Shown here: positions 6,225 through 31,409 of the stretch, piece after piece | Numbering within the stretch: the stretch's first letter is position 1 | How the letters are laid out: each line of letters starts with the position of its first letter | NCBI GenBank assembly: GCA_947586825.1 | Contig: CANPXU010000012.1 | Span: 1-34,003 of the forward strand | DNA from: an uncultured Bacilli bacterium | GTDB taxonomy: Bacteria > Bacillota_I > Bacilli_A > RF39 > UBA660 | DNA: 34,003 nt | Direction: 5' to 3' | Made by a program: the position numbers and the translations under genes | Notes under the pieces: generated by a model | What the model was told of the DNA's origin: nothing | Seen by the model: the letters and a program-made list of their open reading frames with translations, nothing else | Database searches by the model: none

Positions 6225-7727
6225 ATGAAGGTAAAAGAGATAATTATATGTACTTTGTGGTGTATACTAGTTCTTGGCTTATTTGCTGTCAACTATGTTA
6301 CTAACAAACTAATTATTGGTGCTGATGAGGTATATGAAATATACTTAGATGGCAAGGTAATTGGTTACATAGCAGATGAAGATGAATTATATGATATGAT
6401 AAATCATAAACAAAAGGATATAAAGAAACAATTTGGTGTTAATAATGTTTATCCTCCGAGTGATTTTCAGATTGTAAAAACTAATTCATATACAGCAGTA
6501 GTTGAACCTGTCGAAAAGATATACAATCAAATATCTGAACTTAGTAATTTTACGATTGAAGGGTATAGTATTAATATCAAGGGTGAGGATAAGGATATAA
6601 CGATTAAAGTTCTTGATAAAAGTATTTTTGATAAGGCTTTAAATACTTTTATTATGGCTTTTATTGATGAAGATGAATATAATGCTTATATGGAAAATAG
6701 TCAACCGGAGATTGAAACAACTGGTAAGATTATTGAATCAATGTTTTTTGAAGAAACTATAACTATTAAAAAAGCTTTTATTAGTGTTGATGAACACATT
6801 TTTAATACTGCAGATGAATTAAGTCAATATTTACTTTTTGGCGAAAATGCTGAAATAAAAAATTATACTGTTAAATCTGGGGATACTATTGAGTCCGTAT
6901 CTAATAGTAATAAACTTAACCCTAAAGAATTTTTAGTGGCTAATCCTAAATATAAATCTGAAGATAGTATGCTTATCATTGGTGATAATGTTAATATTAC
7001 CCTTATTAAACCGATTTTATCTTATGGTTATGATGTTCATGAAGTCGCTGATATCAAAGATCCTTATGATGAAGAAATAAAATATGATTATACGAAAGAT
7101 CCTTCATATGAAGTTATAACTACTGCGGGTGTTAATGGTGTTACAAGATCTACCTCTAAATATAGAGTTGTTAATGGCGAAACCCTAGCTGGTGCCCGTA
7201 TCGTTGCTAGTGAAGAAATAACTAAGAAAGTAAATCAAGTAACAGTTAAGGGCATGCCTTACAATGGTGGAGGCTCTCAAAACTATGGCTCTGGTACTGG
7301 TCAATATGTTGATACAGGAACTAAGTGGCAATGGCCTACGAATACGCCATATATTATTACCTCATACTATGAATATCGTTGGGGAACTTTCCATGATGGT
7401 TTAGATATTTCAGGAACTGGATGTGGATCACCAATATACGCATCTGAGGCAGGAACGGTTTATCAATCAGCGTGGGAGCCTGGATCTTGCCAAGGTGGTG
7501 GCGAGTGTATTATTATTGGCCATGAAAATGGTTACTATACGATGTATGCTCATATGATGTTAGGCTCAAGACTAGTGTTCGAAGGACAACAAGTTCAAAG
7601 AGGACAAGTAATTGGCCGAATGGGTGATACTGGCGTGGCTTCAGGATGCCACTTACACTTTTCTGTATTTAATGGTATTCCATGGCGTACTGGTAGTACA
7701 TTTAATCCATTGGCTCTATGGGGTTAA
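6225..7727 (+). CDS. Membrane-anchored LysM-G5-M23 peptidoglycan endopeptidase
   Basis: 500 residues. An N-terminal hydrophobic segment (about 6-24) is a membrane anchor or signal. Residues 30-210 hold an uncharacterised region. A LysM domain (about 214-262, YTVKSGDTIESVS) and a G5-like domain (about 285-343) follow. The C-terminal M23/LytM domain has zinc and catalytic residues H390xxxD394, H443 (YAHM) and HLH 476-478, all intact, so an active endopeptidase cutting peptide crosslinks is expected outside the cell. It sits between dnaB and walJ in a run with 1-2 base gaps. The design resembles wall-remodelling hydrolases of sporulating Firmicutes. The exact cleavage bond is unknown. Confidence 0.9.
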   Translation: MKVKEIIICTLWCILVLGLFAVNYVTNKLIIGADEVYEIYLDGKVIGYIADEDELYDMINHKQKDIKKQFGVNNVYPPSDFQIVKTNSYTAVVEPVEKIYNQISELSNFTIEGYSINIKGEDKDITIKVLDKSIFDKALNTFIMAFIDEDEYNAYMENSQPEIETTGKIIESMFFEETITIKKAFISVDEHIFNTADELSQYLLFGENAEIKNYTVKSGDTIESVSNSNKLNPKEFLVANPKYKSEDSMLIIGDNVNITLIKPILSYGYDVHEVADIKDPYDEEIKYDYTKDPSYEVITTAGVNGVTRSTSKYRVVNGETLAGARIVASEEITKKVNQVTVKGMPYNGGGSQNYGSGTGQYVDTGTKWQWPTNTPYIITSYYEYRWGTFHDGLDISGTGCGSPIYASEAGTVYQSAWEPGSCQGGGECIIIGHENGYYTMYAHMMLGSRLVFEGQQVQRGQVIGRMGDTGVASGCHLHFSVFNGIPWRTGSTFNPLALWG

Positions 7728-18008: not shown

Positions 18009-18037
18009 TTTAAATGTTTTTAAGAAAAAGATATAAT
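18009..18037 (+). promoter_or_regulatory. Lipoprotein gene promoter with predicted start on the ATG
   Basis: TTTAAA (18009-18014), 17-base spacer, perfect TATAAT (18032-18037). The canonical start point (seven bases past the hexamer) is 18044, the A of the lipoprotein ATG. Confidence 0.55.
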
Positions 18038-18043
18038 AATAGT

Positions 18044-18724
18044 ATGAAAAAAATAGTTATTATAATAATGATCCTTTTACTTGCGGGATGTTCTAATGAA
18101 AAAGCTGAATTAAATGAAAACAAAAATACTAGTGATGTACCAATAAAAGAGAACACTTCTTTACCTAGCAACACTTATGAAGACAATAATCCGGTTAAAG
18201 TAAGTATCTATATTGATAATGAACAAGGCAGCCTTTTAAAAGTAGTAGATAAGTATCAAACAACATGGGAAAAGAAAAAAGATATTGTTGTTTTAGCTAC
18301 TCTTCCCACAGATATTGATAATCCTGAGTATGGTTATATGCCTGATATATGGCCTTTGTATGATAAATATGATATATCTTATAAAATAGGTTGGAATGTT
18401 TCTTTTAAGTTAAAAAATGGCGAAGAAATAAATTCAACTTTACTAAAACCTAGTGATGCTGAAAGTTATTATGACTATCTAGAAATATATCTTTATGATG
18501 ATGTTAACGTTCCTGCAGGACAATGGCATTCCCATCTTTTAGATGATGAAGTTAATGAAAAGACGATAATGGATGCTATTAAGTTAACCGCGGGTGAAAA
18601 ATATGAAGAAATAGATGGCCCAATAAGTGTAATGGTATTTTCTTATGACGATAATGAAGATTTTGATGAAAATGGCAATTATCGTGGTAAAAGTTTGTAT
18701 AAAGTAGAAATTTATAATAACTAA
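18044..18724 (+). CDS. Lipoprotein of unknown function
   Basis: 226 residues from ATG 18044 (MKKIVIIIMILLLAGCS). The lipobox LAGC puts the lipidated Cys at residue 16. A Ser/Thr/Asn-rich linker runs to about residue 45. The remaining domain is acidic and aromatic with no motif I recognise; VPAGQWHSHLLDDEV and a beta-rich end are its main marks. An upstream in-frame ATG (18014) would spoil the signal peptide. No Shine-Dalgarno sequence is visible, and the promoter predicts a leaderless mRNA. It may serve the repeat protein encoded next, since tapA-like partners sit beside SipW systems, but that is inference. Confidence 0.7.
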   Translation: MKKIVIIIMILLLAGCSNEKAELNENKNTSDVPIKENTSLPSNTYEDNNPVKVSIYIDNEQGSLLKVVDKYQTTWEKKKDIVVLATLPTDIDNPEYGYMPDIWPLYDKYDISYKIGWNVSFKLKNGEEINSTLLKPSDAESYYDYLEIYLYDDVNVPAGQWHSHLLDDEVNEKTIMDAIKLTAGEKYEEIDGPISVMVFSYDDNEDFDENGNYRGKSLYKVEIYNN

Positions 18725-18782: not shown

Positions 18783-20858
18783 TTGAGTGATTTAGAAAAA
18801 GAAAAAGCTATAATTAGTGAATCTCCTGATTTTGAGACACAAAGAGAAATATTAAACGAAGAAAAGATTAATCAAAAAAAGTTGAGAAAATTCTATACGC
18901 ATATAGGATGTGTGTTTTTTTTGACATTCATGATTATCATAATTGCTTATTTAACTATTGATATTTATAAAGAATATAATTTTTTTAGTAATGATGTTTG
19001 CTTAAATGTTAATATAAATGAAGAAGGAGTAGACTTTAAAGCTATAAATGTGGCTGATAAAGGGGACTGTGCTCCTGAATATAATATTGATTACTTTAAT
19101 AATAGAAAAGCTACTTTTAACATTGATTTATTTGGTAACCAAAGCAGGATTTACAATGCAAGAAACCAAAAAGATAATAATGGTTATTGTTTATTAAATT
19201 GTGATTCTAATAACGATAACTGGCCTGATTATAATATTGACTTAAATGGTGATGGAATCGCGGATATAAATATAATTCATGACTACAATAATAGTAATGT
19301 TTGTGATTTAAATTGTGATTTAAATAATGATACTATTCCTGATACCAACATAGATACAGATGGCGATGGAATTGCTGATGTTAATATTACTGATGAATAT
19401 GACAGTTCTAAACCTTTGTATAATGTAGACTATAAAGGAAATAGAAGAGCTGAATTTAATGTAAGAAATGAAGATGGTTCGATATCCAATCCTGTGACAA
19501 AGGTTACGCCAGGAGCAGAGTGCACTGAAAATTGTGATCTTGATGGTGATGGATGGCCTGATTACAATATTAAATTACCAGAAACAGGTACTACTCTAAA
19601 TGAACTTGTTACAACAGGTTCAAAATCAGTTGATTATGATAGAGCAAAAACTGTTGATTGGAAATGTTTTATTTCAGGAACATTACCTAGCTGTGATACA
19701 AATAATGTAGCTCCAAATAATGGTTATATTAATATTGATGTTGATGGTGATGGAACCCCAGATGTTAATGTATCTTATGATGGAGGAACCACTGTTAGTA
19801 ATGGCTTAAATACTCCTGGAAATTATAATGGTCAAGATATAACTTTAAATGAAGATTTTAATGATGATGGTTTCCCTGATTTCAATATTGATTTAAATGG
19901 AGATGGTATTCCAGATTTAAATATTACAGCTGCAGGAAGTCATCAATGCACTAAAAACTGCGATACTAATTATGATGGTAAAGCTGATTATCTAATAGAT
20001 TATGATGGCAGTGGCAACAATAGTATTAGCATGACAAATGAAAATCTTGATGTTGATTTTGATAGTAAATGTGATTTGAACTGCGATACTAATTATGATT
20101 TATATCCGGATTTAAATATTGATACTGATGGTGATGGAGCTCCAGATTTAAATATTGATATTGATAATGATGGAATTCCTGATATCAATATTGATACTGA
20201 TAATGATCATAAGGCAGATAGTAATATGTCTGCAAGACTTGATGGCAATTGTAATTTCAATTGTACAGATAGACCTGAAACGATAGTTGATTACTCTGAT
20301 AGTTGTACTACTAATTGTGATACAAATAAAGATGGATGGCCTGATACTAATGTTGATTTAGATTATGATGGCGTATGTGATATCAATTGCGATACTGGTC
20401 AAACAAATATTGATAAAAATAATGACTATTTTGTTGATGATGGAGATAAAGCTAAAGATATAACATTTGATAAAGGCAAAAATGATATATTCTTTATATT
20501 AAATCCTATTGATATAAAAGGTATAGATATCGAACCAGGATGGCAAGATACATATGTTTTAGAGGTTTATAATAATGCTTCCTATGCTGCAGGCTATAAA
20601 ATAGAGTGGTCTGACATTGTTAATGAGCTTACTGAGGAAAATAATTTGCACTATAGTATTGTTAAAAATGGTAAGTCTTATTTAAATGATCTAAGAACAC
20701 CTTATAGGAATGTAGCTATAAGTGATGAAATAATACTAAGACCAAAAGCCAAAGTTAGATATGTTCTAAATATGAGCTTTGTTGAAACTGGTGAAAATCA
20801 AAATGTTGATAGTGGCAAGACCTTTAAAGGAAAATTAATAGTAACACTAAATAAATAA
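18783..20858 (+). CDS. Surface protein with Asp/Asn/Cys repeats and TasA-like C-terminal domain
   Basis: 691 residues, TTG start with AGGAGAG 6 bases upstream. Residues 1-40 are charged and cytosolic-looking. Residues 41-62 are one membrane helix (FFLTFMIIIIAYLTI), either an anchor or an unusually long signal segment. Residues about 125-560 are repeats of two interleaved kinds: NCDxNxDxxPD units and DxDGDGIPDxNI units, resembling the calcium-binding loops of thrombospondin type-3 and dockerin-like proteins. The last 115 residues (from about 575) form a beta-rich domain (IDIEPGWQDTYVLEVYNNAS) like TasA/camelysin. Since sipW follows, I infer a secreted, calcium-stabilised fibre or matrix component. 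There are at least 15 Cys, mostly in NC pairs. No sortase motif is seen. Confidence 0.75.
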   Translation: MSDLEKEKAIISESPDFETQREILNEEKINQKKLRKFYTHIGCVFFLTFMIIIIAYLTIDIYKEYNFFSNDVCLNVNINEEGVDFKAINVADKGDCAPEYNIDYFNNRKATFNIDLFGNQSRIYNARNQKDNNGYCLLNCDSNNDNWPDYNIDLNGDGIADINIIHDYNNSNVCDLNCDLNNDTIPDTNIDTDGDGIADVNITDEYDSSKPLYNVDYKGNRRAEFNVRNEDGSISNPVTKVTPGAECTENCDLDGDGWPDYNIKLPETGTTLNELVTTGSKSVDYDRAKTVDWKCFISGTLPSCDTNNVAPNNGYINIDVDGDGTPDVNVSYDGGTTVSNGLNTPGNYNGQDITLNEDFNDDGFPDFNIDLNGDGIPDLNITAAGSHQCTKNCDTNYDGKADYLIDYDGSGNNSISMTNENLDVDFDSKCDLNCDTNYDLYPDLNIDTDGDGAPDLNIDIDNDGIPDINIDTDNDHKADSNMSARLDGNCNFNCTDRPETIVDYSDSCTTNCDTNKDGWPDTNVDLDYDGVCDINCDTGQTNIDKNNDYFVDDGDKAKDITFDKGKNDIFFILNPIDIKGIDIEPGWQDTYVLEVYNNASYAAGYKIEWSDIVNELTEENNLHYSIVKNGKSYLNDLRTPYRNVAISDEIILRPKAKVRYVLNMSFVETGENQNVDSGKTFKGKLIVTLNK
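19198..20447 (+). repeat. Degenerate NCD / DGDGxPD repeats inside the surface protein gene
   Basis: The units are in-frame and imperfect, of roughly 12-30 codons. Typical units are NCDTNYDGKAD, NCDLNNDTIPD and NCDTNKDGWPD alternating with DTDGDGAPD, DLNGDGIAD and DIDNDGIPD. The DNA echoes the protein period with recurrent GATGGTGATGGA-like words. Confidence 0.85.
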
Positions 20859-20878: not shown

Positions 20879-21559
20879 ATGAAGAAAAAATATAGTAAAA
20901 ATTATATTTTTAAATATCTATCCACGATATGCTCGTGGACCCTTTTTATTTATTTGCTTTTAATTGCGGGCTTCTTGTTCTTTTATTTTATAAATATTAA
21001 GATTATAAACAAAGATAAAGTTAGTCAACCTATTTCAATATATACCATTGTAAGTGGTTCAATGATTCCTACGATAGATGTATATGATGTAGTAATTAAT
21101 GTAAAAATTGATTCTCCTAAAGATATAAAAGAGGGGGATATAATTACCTTTATTTCTCAAAGTGCAATATCAGAAAATCTAACAGTTACTCACCGGGTTA
21201 AAGATATTCAAGTAGTTAATGGTGAATACCAATTCACTACTAAAGGAGATAATAATATTATTCAAGATTCTGCTCCTGCAACATTTGATAAAATAATTGG
21301 TAAAGCAGTACTTAGAATTCCCCAATTAGGAAGAGTTCAAACTTTTGTAGCAAGCAAGTTTGGCTGGATAGTAATAGTTATTCTTCCAGCTCTTTATATA
21401 ATACTTAAAGATATTATTAAACTAGTAAGAATAAGTAAATTACAAAAAACATCTAACGAAGAAAAAGCAAATGCTATAAAAAATGGCAAAAAAGATTATG
21501 ATGAAGATGACAATGATGATATAATAGACGATGATGAAAGGAAAGATGACGATGACTGA
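20879..21559 (+). CDS. sipW: Signal peptidase I, SipW/ER type
   Basis: 226 residues: an N-terminal helix (about 18-40), the catalytic domain, and a second helix (about 163-183) with a cytosolic tail. Catalytic signs are VSGSMIPT (S61), VTHRV (H105) and TKGDNN (D124). Having His where ordinary bacterial type I peptidases have Lys marks the SipW/archaeal/ER class, which in Bacillus processes TasA and TapA. It is placed 20 bases after the repeat protein gene, which is therefore its likely substrate. The tail is strongly acidic (about residues 208-226, mostly Asp), longer than I would expect. GGAAGGA precedes the ATG. Confidence 0.9.
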   Translation: MKKKYSKNYIFKYLSTICSWTLFIYLLLIAGFLFFYFINIKIINKDKVSQPISIYTIVSGSMIPTIDVYDVVINVKIDSPKDIKEGDIITFISQSAISENLTVTHRVKDIQVVNGEYQFTTKGDNNIIQDSAPATFDKIIGKAVLRIPQLGRVQTFVASKFGWIVIVILPALYIILKDIIKLVRISKLQKTSNEEKANAIKNGKKDYDEDDNDDIIDDDERKDDDD

Positions 21560-21820: not shown

Positions 21821-22989
21821 ATGAGTTTATTTATCCACAAAGAAGCTGCTGTATCACCAAGTGAGTTAAGCATTGTTGCTGGAGCATCAGTAATGGTGGC
21901 AATTATTGTTAAAATAGGAAGTGCAGATATTGGGAAGCCTAAAAGGGTTATTATTAACATCTCCGATATAGTACCGCCGCCTACAGGTACAGCTGTAATA
22001 AGAAGGCTTGCGACGATAGCTACAAGGCAAACTTCAAAAACACTTATAGAACTACCAAATAAATAAACTAAAAACATTATTTTGAATACACTATCAATAA
22101 CCGATCCATCTTTATGGAAACTAGTACCTAAAGATAGGGTAGTATTACAAACATCTTCATTAACACCCATATTCTTTATTGCTTTAACATTAACTGGTAA
22201 AGTAGCAGCAGAAGAGCATGTGCCTAATGAGCAAAGGATAACCGGAAGACTTTCTTTCCAAAAGGTTTTAATACTTTTACCACATAATAGAGCAATTAAT
22301 GAGTAAACTAAAATGGCAAAAATGATAGATATTACTGTGTAATAGATGAATACCTTAAGATAACTTGTGGCTACACTGGCACCGAAAGATCCGACCATAG
22401 ATGCAAAATAAGCACATATTCCTATTGGAGCATAATACATAATTATTTTAATGATATTCATAATTATTTCATTAGCAGTTTCTAGTCCTTTAATAATCTT
22501 TTCTTTATTATCAAGACTATTTATGGATATACCTGTTAAGATGCTAAACGTTATTAAAGCAATGATGTTATTTTTAGATATTAATTCCGTAAAATCTGAT
22601 ACACTAAACATTGAAACAAACTTTTCAAGATAGTTCATAGCTTCACTAGTAACACTGCTATCCATTGAGCTTAAAGCAGAAGTTGAAACAAAGTTATAGG
22701 CATATGTTGCGGCAACACCAACACCAACGGATATTATAGCCATTAAGATGAATACTACAAAGATTCTTCTTATTAGTCTGAAAGCTTTACGTGGTCTTAT
22801 TTTAGCAATGGCTAAAGTGACAGTTACAAATATAAGAGGAACAATAACTACTGATAATAGATTAATAAATAATTCTCCAAGTGGTGCTATATATGAAGCT
22901 TTATCTTTGAATATAAGGCCTATGATAACACCTATTACCATACTTAAAATAAGTGCTATACTAGTGCCCCACCTTTTTAAAAAATTCAT
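21799..22989 (-). CDS. Dicarboxylate/amino acid:cation symporter (DAACS/GltP family)
   Basis: 396 residues from ATG 22989 (a GTG 3 codons upstream is in frame, but AGGTGATTATA fits the ATG). About 8 helices plus two re-entrant loops. Family marks: the serine-rich hairpin [13 protein letters not shown], the later [13 protein letters not shown] loop (in place of NMDGT) and [14 protein letters not shown]. Members import glutamate, aspartate, serine or dicarboxylates with Na+ or H+. HKDGS instead of the usual NMDGT suggests a divergent subgroup with unclear substrate. Convergent with the sipW operon and divergent from rubrerythrin. Confidence 0.92.
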
Positions 22990-23054
22990 TATAATCACCT
23001 ATATTATTTATATTCGAACATGCGAGATATGTGCCCAAATTTTTGCTCAAAATT

Positions 23055-23069
23055 ATATAATTATTAAAT
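23055..23069 (+). promoter_or_regulatory. Possible PerR-like operator
   Basis: Fifteen bases matching the PerR box TTATAATNATTATAA at 11 of 14 specified positions, directly before the -35 of the rubrerythrin promoter. The region is very AT-rich, so chance similarity is quite possible. Confidence 0.25.
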
Positions 23070-23097
23070 TGACTAGTAATATTAAATGTGTTAATAT
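23069..23097 (+). promoter_or_regulatory. Rubrerythrin promoter
   Basis: TTGACT (23069-23074), 17-base spacer, extended -10 TGtTAATAT (hexamer 23092-23097). Confidence 0.7.
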
Positions 23098-23122
23098 TAA
23101 AATGAAATTTAAGGAGGAAGTA

Positions 23123-23662
23123 ATGGAACTAAAAGGAAGTAAAACAGAAGCTAATTTAATGGCTGCATTTGCTGGGGAAAGCCAAGCAAGAAATAAATAT
23201 ACATATTATGCATCAAAAGCAAGAAAAGATGGTTATGAACAAATCGCTGCTATCTTTGAGGAAACTGCTAATAATGAAAAAGAGCATGCTAAATTATGGT
23301 TTAAAGAATTAAATGGAGGAGAAATTCCTTCAACTGAAGAAAACTTAAAAGATGCTGCTCATGGTGAAAACTATGAATGGACAGAAATGTATAAAGAATT
23401 TGCGGAAACTGCTAGAGAAGAAGGTTTTGACCAAATAGCTTTCCTTTTTGAAAAAGTTGGCGAAATTGAAAAACATCATGAAGAAAGATATTTAAAACTA
23501 TTAGATAATGTTGAAAAAGATCAAGTATTCCATAAAGATGAAGAAGTAATTTGGATTTGCCGTAACTGTGGTCATGTTTACTATGGTAAGGATGCTTTAA
23601 AGGTTTGTCCTGTTTGTAAACATGCTGAAAGCTTTATGGAACTTAAAGCTGTTAATTATTAA
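23123..23662 (+). CDS. rbr: Rubrerythrin
   Basis: 179 residues from ATG 23123 (AAGGAGGAAG upstream); a much longer open frame beginning at 22748 has no ribosome site in its upper part. N-terminal four-helix diiron domain with Glu ligands in [22 protein letters not shown] and [14 protein letters not shown]-terminal rubredoxin-like Fe(Cys)4 site is formed by C146xxC149 and C162xxC165. It reduces hydrogen peroxide in the cytosol using NAD(P)H-linked donors, and so protects anaerobes from oxidants. The family suits an anaerobic gut host. It is likely a single-gene transcript before the pheST T-box. Confidence 0.95.
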
Positions 23663-23679
23663 TATACAGTGATTTATTA

Positions 23680-23863
23680 AAGTAGTTTTAGAAAATTATT
23701 AGAGAGTAATAAAGATGGTGAAATTATTACACAAAGCTAAAACGAAATTCAAATAAGGAGTATAAACGATTAAGTCGCGTTAAGACAAAAGAGTGTATGA
23801 AGCTTCATAAATTAAGGTGGTACCGCGGGCATGGCTCGTCCTTAAGTTATGGAGCTTTTTTGT
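23680..23863 (+). ncRNA. T-box riboswitch (tRNA-Phe), upstream of pheST
   Basis: The T-box core AAGGTGGTACCGCG (23814-23827) is unmistakable. The 5' part contains AGAGAGTA (23701) and a specifier loop where TTC, a Phe codon, lies at 23748-23750. The terminator pairs 23801-23817 with 23840-23856 (17 bp, one mismatch, one G-T) and ends in a T run. Uncharged tRNA-Phe should bind the specifier and the T-box and stop the terminator forming, so pheST is expressed when phenylalanine-charged tRNA is scarce. Confidence 0.92.
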
Positions 23864-31277: not shown

Positions 31278-31289
31278 ACGAAATAGAAA

Positions 31290-31342
31290 AACGAGGAACC
31301 AAAGACAGTAGGAGCCAAAAAGGCTTAATATTTCCTACCGAG
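31290..31342 (+). ncRNA. L10 leader
   Basis: GTAGGA/TCCTAC (31308-31313 with 31333-31338) closes over AGCC/GGCT (31313-31316 with 31322-31325) and ends in CCTACCGAGG, the L10 leader layout. The L10-(L12)4 complex should bind it and reduce rplJL expression. Confidence 0.8.
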
Positions 31343-31388
31343 GGGAAAGTTTTATATCTTTTATAAGCTTCCCCATGGGAAGTTTTTC
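31341..31388 (+). terminator. Attenuator of rplJL with competing hairpin
   Basis: CTTCCC/GGGAAG (31368-31373 with 31377-31382) is followed by five T. The same CTTCCCC can instead pair with GGGGAA-G at 31342-31349. The two hairpins exclude each other, which gives an on/off switch below the L10 site. Confidence 0.65.
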
Positions 31389-31409
31389 TAATAATATAAG
31401 GAGGAAAAG

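Follow-up and report, generated by a model that had tools for sequence, protein, structure and literature searches.

A membrane-tethered repeat protein of uncultured gut Bacilli with a putative calcium-loop stalk, all-or-none cysteine joints and a predicted TasA-like head

Several described systems resemble parts of the locus reported here. The Bacillus signal peptidase SipW has TasA and TapA as its substrates, of which TapA initiates the fibre (PMC9674648, PMC10151520). A sortase-independent filament system exists in B. cereus (PMC13082335), and two related orders are described as being without sortases (PMC10868615); it is our guess that the family studied here lies near those sortase-less orders and is akin to the RF39/RFN20 orders. 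Calcium is bound by Dx[DN]xDG loops in many folds, including strand-loop-strand ones (PMC3123361). The locus lies in a stretch of 34,003 nucleotides (contig CANPXU010000012.1, hereafter the window) from an uncultured Bacilli bacterium, whose genome assembly (G000) comprises 1.2 Mb in 51 contigs, is 82% complete and holds a single copy of the repeat protein.

The repeat region proposed by the original prediction, 19198-20447, is present at that place and lies inside a single open reading frame; the array begins slightly earlier, and the protein runs well beyond the region. The features of the gene and its direct neighbours are as follows.

18014..18724, + strand: putative lipoprotein gene, conserved ahead of the repeat gene at the genus loci; no Pfam family reaches its cut-off
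18783..20858, + strand: repeat protein gene, 691 aa, TTG start with AGGAG upstream
18783..18902, + strand: charged N-terminal segment ahead of the membrane, residues 1-40 (translation; helical in the poor model of the window protein)
18903..18959, + strand: predicted single transmembrane segment, residues 41-59 (hydropathy maximum 2.65; model helix 17-64)
19170..20462, + strand: array of 12-residue Dx[DN]xDG loop units with inserts, residues ~130-560 (TRF and motif counts; 82-protein consensus)
20115..20222, + strand: three full-length Ile-type units in succession, NIDTDGDGAPDL NIDIDNDGIPDI NIDTDNDHKADS (TRF and motif counts)
20490..20855, + strand: predicted C-terminal beta-sandwich domain, residues ~570-691 (model strands 588-690; TasA-like fold in a relative)
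20879..21559, + strand: next gene, SipW-like / archaeal-type signal peptidase I (TIGR02228, 93.4 bits against a cut-off of 51.85)

The TTG start and the AGGAG-type ribosome-binding sequence are common to most of the genus orthologues. The lipoprotein gene perhaps belongs to the repeat-protein system, its membership being uncertain. Elsewhere in the window, a T-box leader lies at 23660-23846 (+) ahead of pheS-pheT (Rfam RF00230, 94.4 bits), a ribosomal protein L10 leader at 31281-31397 (+) (Rfam RF00557, 69.5 bits), and a gene for an M23 peptidase with LysM and G5 domains at 6225-7727 (+), which suggests a peptidoglycan wall in the source organism.

The array is acidic and rich in Asn and Asp. 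Two interleaved repeat types had been proposed; when the array is broken at N-x-D, a single 12-residue unit emerges, N1 [I/V/L or C]2 D3 x4 [D/N]5 x6 D7 G8 x9 [P/A or C]10 D11 x12; the supposed NCD units are copies of it that carry a position-2 Cys, and the two-type description is replaced by one unit with two kinds of joint. The regular cysteine element is likewise not the paired Asn-Cys that had been suggested but C-x-x-N-C, formed at a joint by Cys at position 10 and Cys at position 2 of the following unit. In residues 129-560 this motif occurs 8 times, compared with a mean of 0.11 and a maximum of 3 in 20,000 composition-preserving shuffles of the same residues, whereas "NC" alone is weaker (9, compared with a mean of 2.7 and a maximum of 10). 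The regular calcium-loop pattern of the original prediction is borne out: DxDxDGxxD is found 6 times (shuffle mean 0.05, maximum 2) and Dx[DN]x[DN]xxxD 26 times (mean 1.75, maximum 9). TRF reports 36-bp arrays at 19854-19925 and 20085-20227, and the window copy of the array is degenerate and interrupted by inserts relative to the arrays of its relatives. The protein contains 21 Cys, of which C43, C73, C96, C295 and C304 are outside the motif; the remainder form the following joints, each located by motif count and conserved in orthologues.

19188..19202, + strand: Cys joint 1, CLLNC (C136, C140)
19302..19316, + strand: Cys joint 2, CDLNC (C174, C178)
19521..19535, + strand: Cys joint 3, CTENC (C247, C251)
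19947..19961, + strand: Cys joint 4, CTKNC (C389, C393)
20070..20084, + strand: Cys joint 5, CDLNC (C430, C434)
20250..20264, + strand: Cys joint 6, CNFNC (C490, C494)
20304..20318, + strand: Cys joint 7, CTTNC (C508, C512)
20376..20390, + strand: Cys joint 8, CDINC (C532, C536)

The conservation of these cysteines in homologues was confirmed. None of the 16 Cys in the eight motifs varies across the nine genus orthologues, whose identity to the window protein is 48-90% at a mean column identity of 67%, and synonymous switching between TGT and TGC is seen at 14 of the 16 codons. The dN/dS of the repeat gene is 0.09-0.20 in the close pairs tested.

The coupling of the two cysteines was followed in 82 distinct repeat proteins, taken from L001 and the best 80 of 220 confirmed loci. 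These loci were found with two scan patterns, one of which contains NCD and hence the position-2 Cys while neither contains position 10, so that the share of Cys joints is biased upward and the coupling is unbiased. An initial loose count gave 268 joints with Cys at position 10 only and 11 with Cys at position 2 only; most of the 268 were judged to be off-frame at Asn-5, and the frame was tightened. Among the 2428 strict joints, which have a complete framework on both sides, 1066 carry both Cys, 1362 carry neither and 0 carry one. In the relaxed frame (3041 joints) the corresponding numbers are 1241, 1799 and 1, compared with approximately 1469 single-Cys joints expected if the positions were independent. 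Copying of units inflates these counts; restricted to distinct 25-residue joint contexts, 2316 in all, 987 joints have both Cys and 1329 have neither. Additionally, an alignment of 20 homologues (A3, picked by length and by similarity of the head) has 21 joint columns in which some rows are Cys-Cys and others lack Cys altogether, and no row has a single Cys.

Both kinds of joint are present in 80 of the 82 proteins, and C-x3-C pairs hold 3428 of their 3536 Cys. The non-Cys joints are dominated by Pro-Ile (748), Pro-Val (377), Pro-Leu (93) and Ala-Ile (82), compact hydrophobic residues that are expected of a packed contact, and the simplest cause of the all-or-none coupling is that position 10 directly touches position 2 of the following unit. 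The 2428 strict joints have D3 in 2427 cases, D7 in 2329, G8 in 2015 and D11 in 2321, where positions 3, 5, 7 and 11 had sat in the unit filter as D/N or D/E/N. The disulfide ladder of the original prediction is probably the wrong picture, because the coupling is local (i, i+4 over the joint) and 787 of 1629 C-x-x-N-C motifs are without another within 23 residues; the Cys within a motif are spaced by 4, and motif starts are mostly 12, 24, 36, 51 or 75 residues apart. The copy number of units varies widely among the related proteins. The array at L045:3-2435 (-) is marked by long runs of C-x-x-N-C and by a tail unit of another type, also containing Cys, that reaches the contig end.

The loops that the original prediction expected to be ordered are so, with local confidence, in the model of a relative; the model of the window protein is poor (mean pLDDT 45), with a head at approximately 65 that yields generic jelly-roll matches; the fold search with this low-confidence model was set aside. 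An AF2 model of the last 300 residues of the relative L114, computed from 60 aligned tails (A4, picked for head similarity and length), has a mean pLDDT of 84, with approximately 85-90 in the array and 90 in the head, and a pTM of 0.48. In its array, strand residues occupy positions 2 and 12 of the unit at a distance of ten, so that every unit appears to close a loop of its own and the array to form a string of loops, no solenoid. A beta-solenoid with pairing between rungs was rejected, since the strands pair naturally inside units (9-19, 24-34, 36-46 and so on, with partners inferred from spacing). The rod shape is putative because the pTM is only 0.48. The Dx[DN]xDG motif with a further Asp between short strands, as expected of a calcium loop, is found in the counts from the 82 proteins and in the L114 model, and the loops of the array most likely bind Ca2+, one ion per unit. 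Matches of the arrays and of the A4 tails to PDB sequences, filamin among them, are weak and were judged to be compositional.

Taken together, these features are best explained, with reasonable probability, by a membrane-tethered surface stalk that is stiffened by calcium, has cross-linked joints and carries a TasA-like head. The N-terminus would lie inside the cell, and the one transmembrane segment would anchor, or first anchor, the chain. The array would project outward as a string of 12-residue Dx[DN]xDG loops, each closed within its unit by residues 2 and 12 and most likely built around one Ca2+; we propose that calcium in each loop stiffens the string. At each joint, position 10 would touch the following position 2, usually as Pro or Ala with Ile, Val or Leu; at selected joints a Cys-Cys pair, most likely in a local disulfide, would fix the joint. 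The TasA-like beta-sandwich at the far C-terminal end could accept a strand from a partner or exchange one with it, and the adjoining SipW-like peptidase most likely handles the repeat protein, in processing or export.

The assignment of the head follows from the best matches of the L114 model. In Foldseek, the structure 8aur of the TasA biofilm fibre comes first (E 4.8e-4), and it superimposes with Z 8.9 and 3.1 A over 123 residues at 17% identity; it is the only one of 987 chains with a Z of at least 8 in the VIA list, which covers only residues ~167-300 of the model. The monomeric TasA structures 5of2 and 5of1 come after, at Z 7.1 and 6.9, among other beta-sandwiches, and the Z values below the top match are ordinary for this fold. 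These matches point to a TasA-like beta-sandwich as the predicted fold of the L114 head. The head of the window protein matches no Pfam family, Peptidase_M73 included.

The next gene, which exceeds the cut-off of TIGR02228, scores below that of the NF046067 SipW model (74.7 against 190 bits). A SipW-like gene adjoins the repeat gene in the syntenic genus loci, and G001, the only one of the 10 genus genomes without a repeat-protein match, is also without a close SipW. Among the best 80 of the 220 related loci, where the local SipW profile matches 49 of 758 open reading frames, 47 have a SipW-like gene no more than 1 kb from the repeat gene, and 33, some of them on short contigs, have none at that distance. 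By the local profiles, both of which were built partly from these same loci, this proximity is found in 46 of the 69 loci with the head and in 1 of the 11 without it (Fisher p 4e-4). A SipW-type signal motif is recognised by a crude expression in only 18 of the 82 proteins. Nine loci (L080, L081, L097, L099, L101, L107, L120, L124 and L127) encode repeat proteins with a different C-terminus at which the head profile is silent, and contain no SipW gene.

In an alternative reading, the protein would be a TapA-like filament starter: it would act as an anchor, fibres of small TasA-like subunits would grow from its head, and the array would serve as a spacer through a thin wall. TapA, whose gene adjoins that of SipW, co-localises with the membrane and initiates the filaments of TasA (PMC10151520). 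Short genes with the same head domain, recognised by the local profile, sit near several repeat loci, and one of six such paralogues or neighbours scanned passes Pfam Peptidase_M73 (27.5 against 22.5 bits). However, the window's own genome, at 82% completeness, has no other protein with the head (one match at E up to 10), and camelysin (Peptidase_M73) is found in 0 of the 10 genus genomes; we regard this alternative as possible and rather unlikely. At L070:9054-14213, eight consecutive short genes downstream of the repeat gene match the TasA-like head profile and are possibly a set of fibre subunits.

Under the calcium-stiffened stalk that we favour, the cysteine pairs would be oxidised. Neither VKOR nor DsbB is found in any of 60 family genomes, approximately half of which were chosen with and half without the Cys pattern, and Thioredoxin_4 (the DsbA/BdbD type) exceeds its cut-off in none of them, with 8 weak matches; all three oxidase models match control genomes. 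These results speak against disulfides, which, if present, would arise through an unrecognised enzyme or from exposure to oxidants, and Cys pairs that are reduced or hold a metal are possible. A gene for rubrerythrin, an oxidative-stress protein of anaerobes, lies at 22748-23662 (+) and is kept near the module in the genus, which makes it of interest to the redox question. A broader proposal, a lineage-specific rod in which coded Cys pairs tune the stiffness of individual joints as a redox- or metal-responsive lock, with no recognised disulfide enzyme and with a TasA-type head replacing a sortase-anchored adhesin, strikes us as quite improbable. Distinctly doubtful as well is the narrower alternative in which C-x-x-N-C is normally reduced or holds a thiophilic metal and stiffness changes on exposure to oxygen or metal: the strict pairing and the missing oxidase matches speak for it, but no metal-binding family is matched in a Pfam hmmscan of nine repeat proteins (that of the window and 8 related ones), oxidation could be spontaneous or enzymatically unrecognised, and the compact hydrophobic residues that occupy positions 10 and 2' in non-Cys joints fit a packed contact. 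Finally, a flexible, low-complexity D/N-rich spacer spread by DNA slippage, with no ordered ion sites and with Cys pairs copied along, would account for the varying copy number, the composition-driven matches to Sdr adhesins and the poor model of the window protein, but it is very unlikely given the lack of any single-Cys joint among 2428 despite divergence, the 21 mixed aligned joints, the low dN/dS, the invariance of the motif Cys in the orthologues and the locally confident model of the relative.

The repeat protein matches 27 of 147 genomes, its own included, among them 9 of the 10 genus members. In genus loci with enough flank, the gene order FtsE-FtsX-M23 peptidase-lipoprotein-repeat protein-SipW-DAACS transporter is kept, with one extra open reading frame in the otherwise kept order of L037. 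A scan of named genomes yielded the 220 related stretches, and the best 80 come almost entirely from uncultured Bacilli, "Tenericutes" or Bacillota bins, in whose names rabbits (Lapin), chickens and ruminants feature prominently. The exact DNA pattern for C-D-x-N-C-D-x-[D/N]-x-D occurs in 72 of 386 genomes and 33 of 150 genera of the window's family; in a class sample it occurs in 17 of 395 genomes, all 17 in this family and none elsewhere among the genomes listed, and the reversed pattern has no match among the rows listed. Among the sampled genomes, the Cys-joint motif is thus confined to one family of uncultured gut Bacilli; its spread is underestimated, because the pattern is exact DNA and needs Asp after both Cys.

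The original prediction had raised transfer as one possible source of the thrombospondin resemblance; a recent transfer into the window genome is unsupported by the codon usage (r = 0.93 with the pooled neighbours; GC3 0.146 compared with 0.16-0.21) and the conserved synteny. The repeat gene has no phage match and no confirmed relative on a viral contig, its plasmid matches all stay below 60% identity, none of them spanning 80% of the query at one place, and a mobile origin is disfavoured by these searches.

If the favoured stalk is correct, it suggests a mode of surface display in poorly known gut Bacilli with thin or missing walls, in which a TasA-like tip is borne on a calcium rod with an N-terminal membrane tether. 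The joint is a rare natural case of a contact whose two positions change together, either both hydrophobic or both Cys, across more than 1000 joints with almost no intermediate, and such coupled joints offer a clean test-bed for the covalent tuning of calcium-stabilised rods. They also pose the question of how anaerobes without known oxidases form, or dispense with, such disulfides.

The protein was not found in the literature searched, unit strings included, a search that lay largely outside subscription journals. As far as this search extends, the parts are of known kinds, and their combination and the coupled joint are undescribed. Thrombospondin type-3 (TSP3) repeats and their bacterial counterparts, to which the original prediction likened the array, are also tandem Dx[DN]xDG loops, Cys-rich and probably extracellular; the array differs in its 12-residue unit, in the N-I/C between loops and apparently in Cys coupled i, i+4 across the joint. 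The resemblance does not extend to membership in this family, since the hmmscan gives no TSP3 family and PF18884 (TSP3_bac) is silent at the repeat genes of the own genome and genus; in 60 genomes, it has no match in the own genome, and its matches in G001, G007, G027 and G106 are off the repeat-protein loci. The TSP3 identity was rejected on this profile. The staphylococcal Sdr/Clf adhesins share a D-rich stalk, and their NCBIfam models give weak scores with the window protein, which were rejected as compositional and far under cut-off (e.g. 55 against 1700 bits); in contrast to these adhesins, the window protein is without serine-aspartate repeats, and its membrane segment is N-terminal. The calcium loops of integrin/FG-GAP-type propellers resemble the array in Dx[DN]xDG with a further Asp, and the predicted unit closes similarly, but those loops are enclosed by the fold, whereas the loops of the array are strung head to tail without an enclosing fold. 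The neighbouring peptidase falls short of the Bacillus SipW equivalog cut-off. The Bacillus TasA/camelysin and SipW system is similar in the head fold, as modelled in the relative, and in the adjoining SipW-like gene; it differs in that no N-terminal donor strand is recognised in the repeat protein, and in that the TasA-like domain here is predicted to end a long calcium-loop array behind a transmembrane segment.
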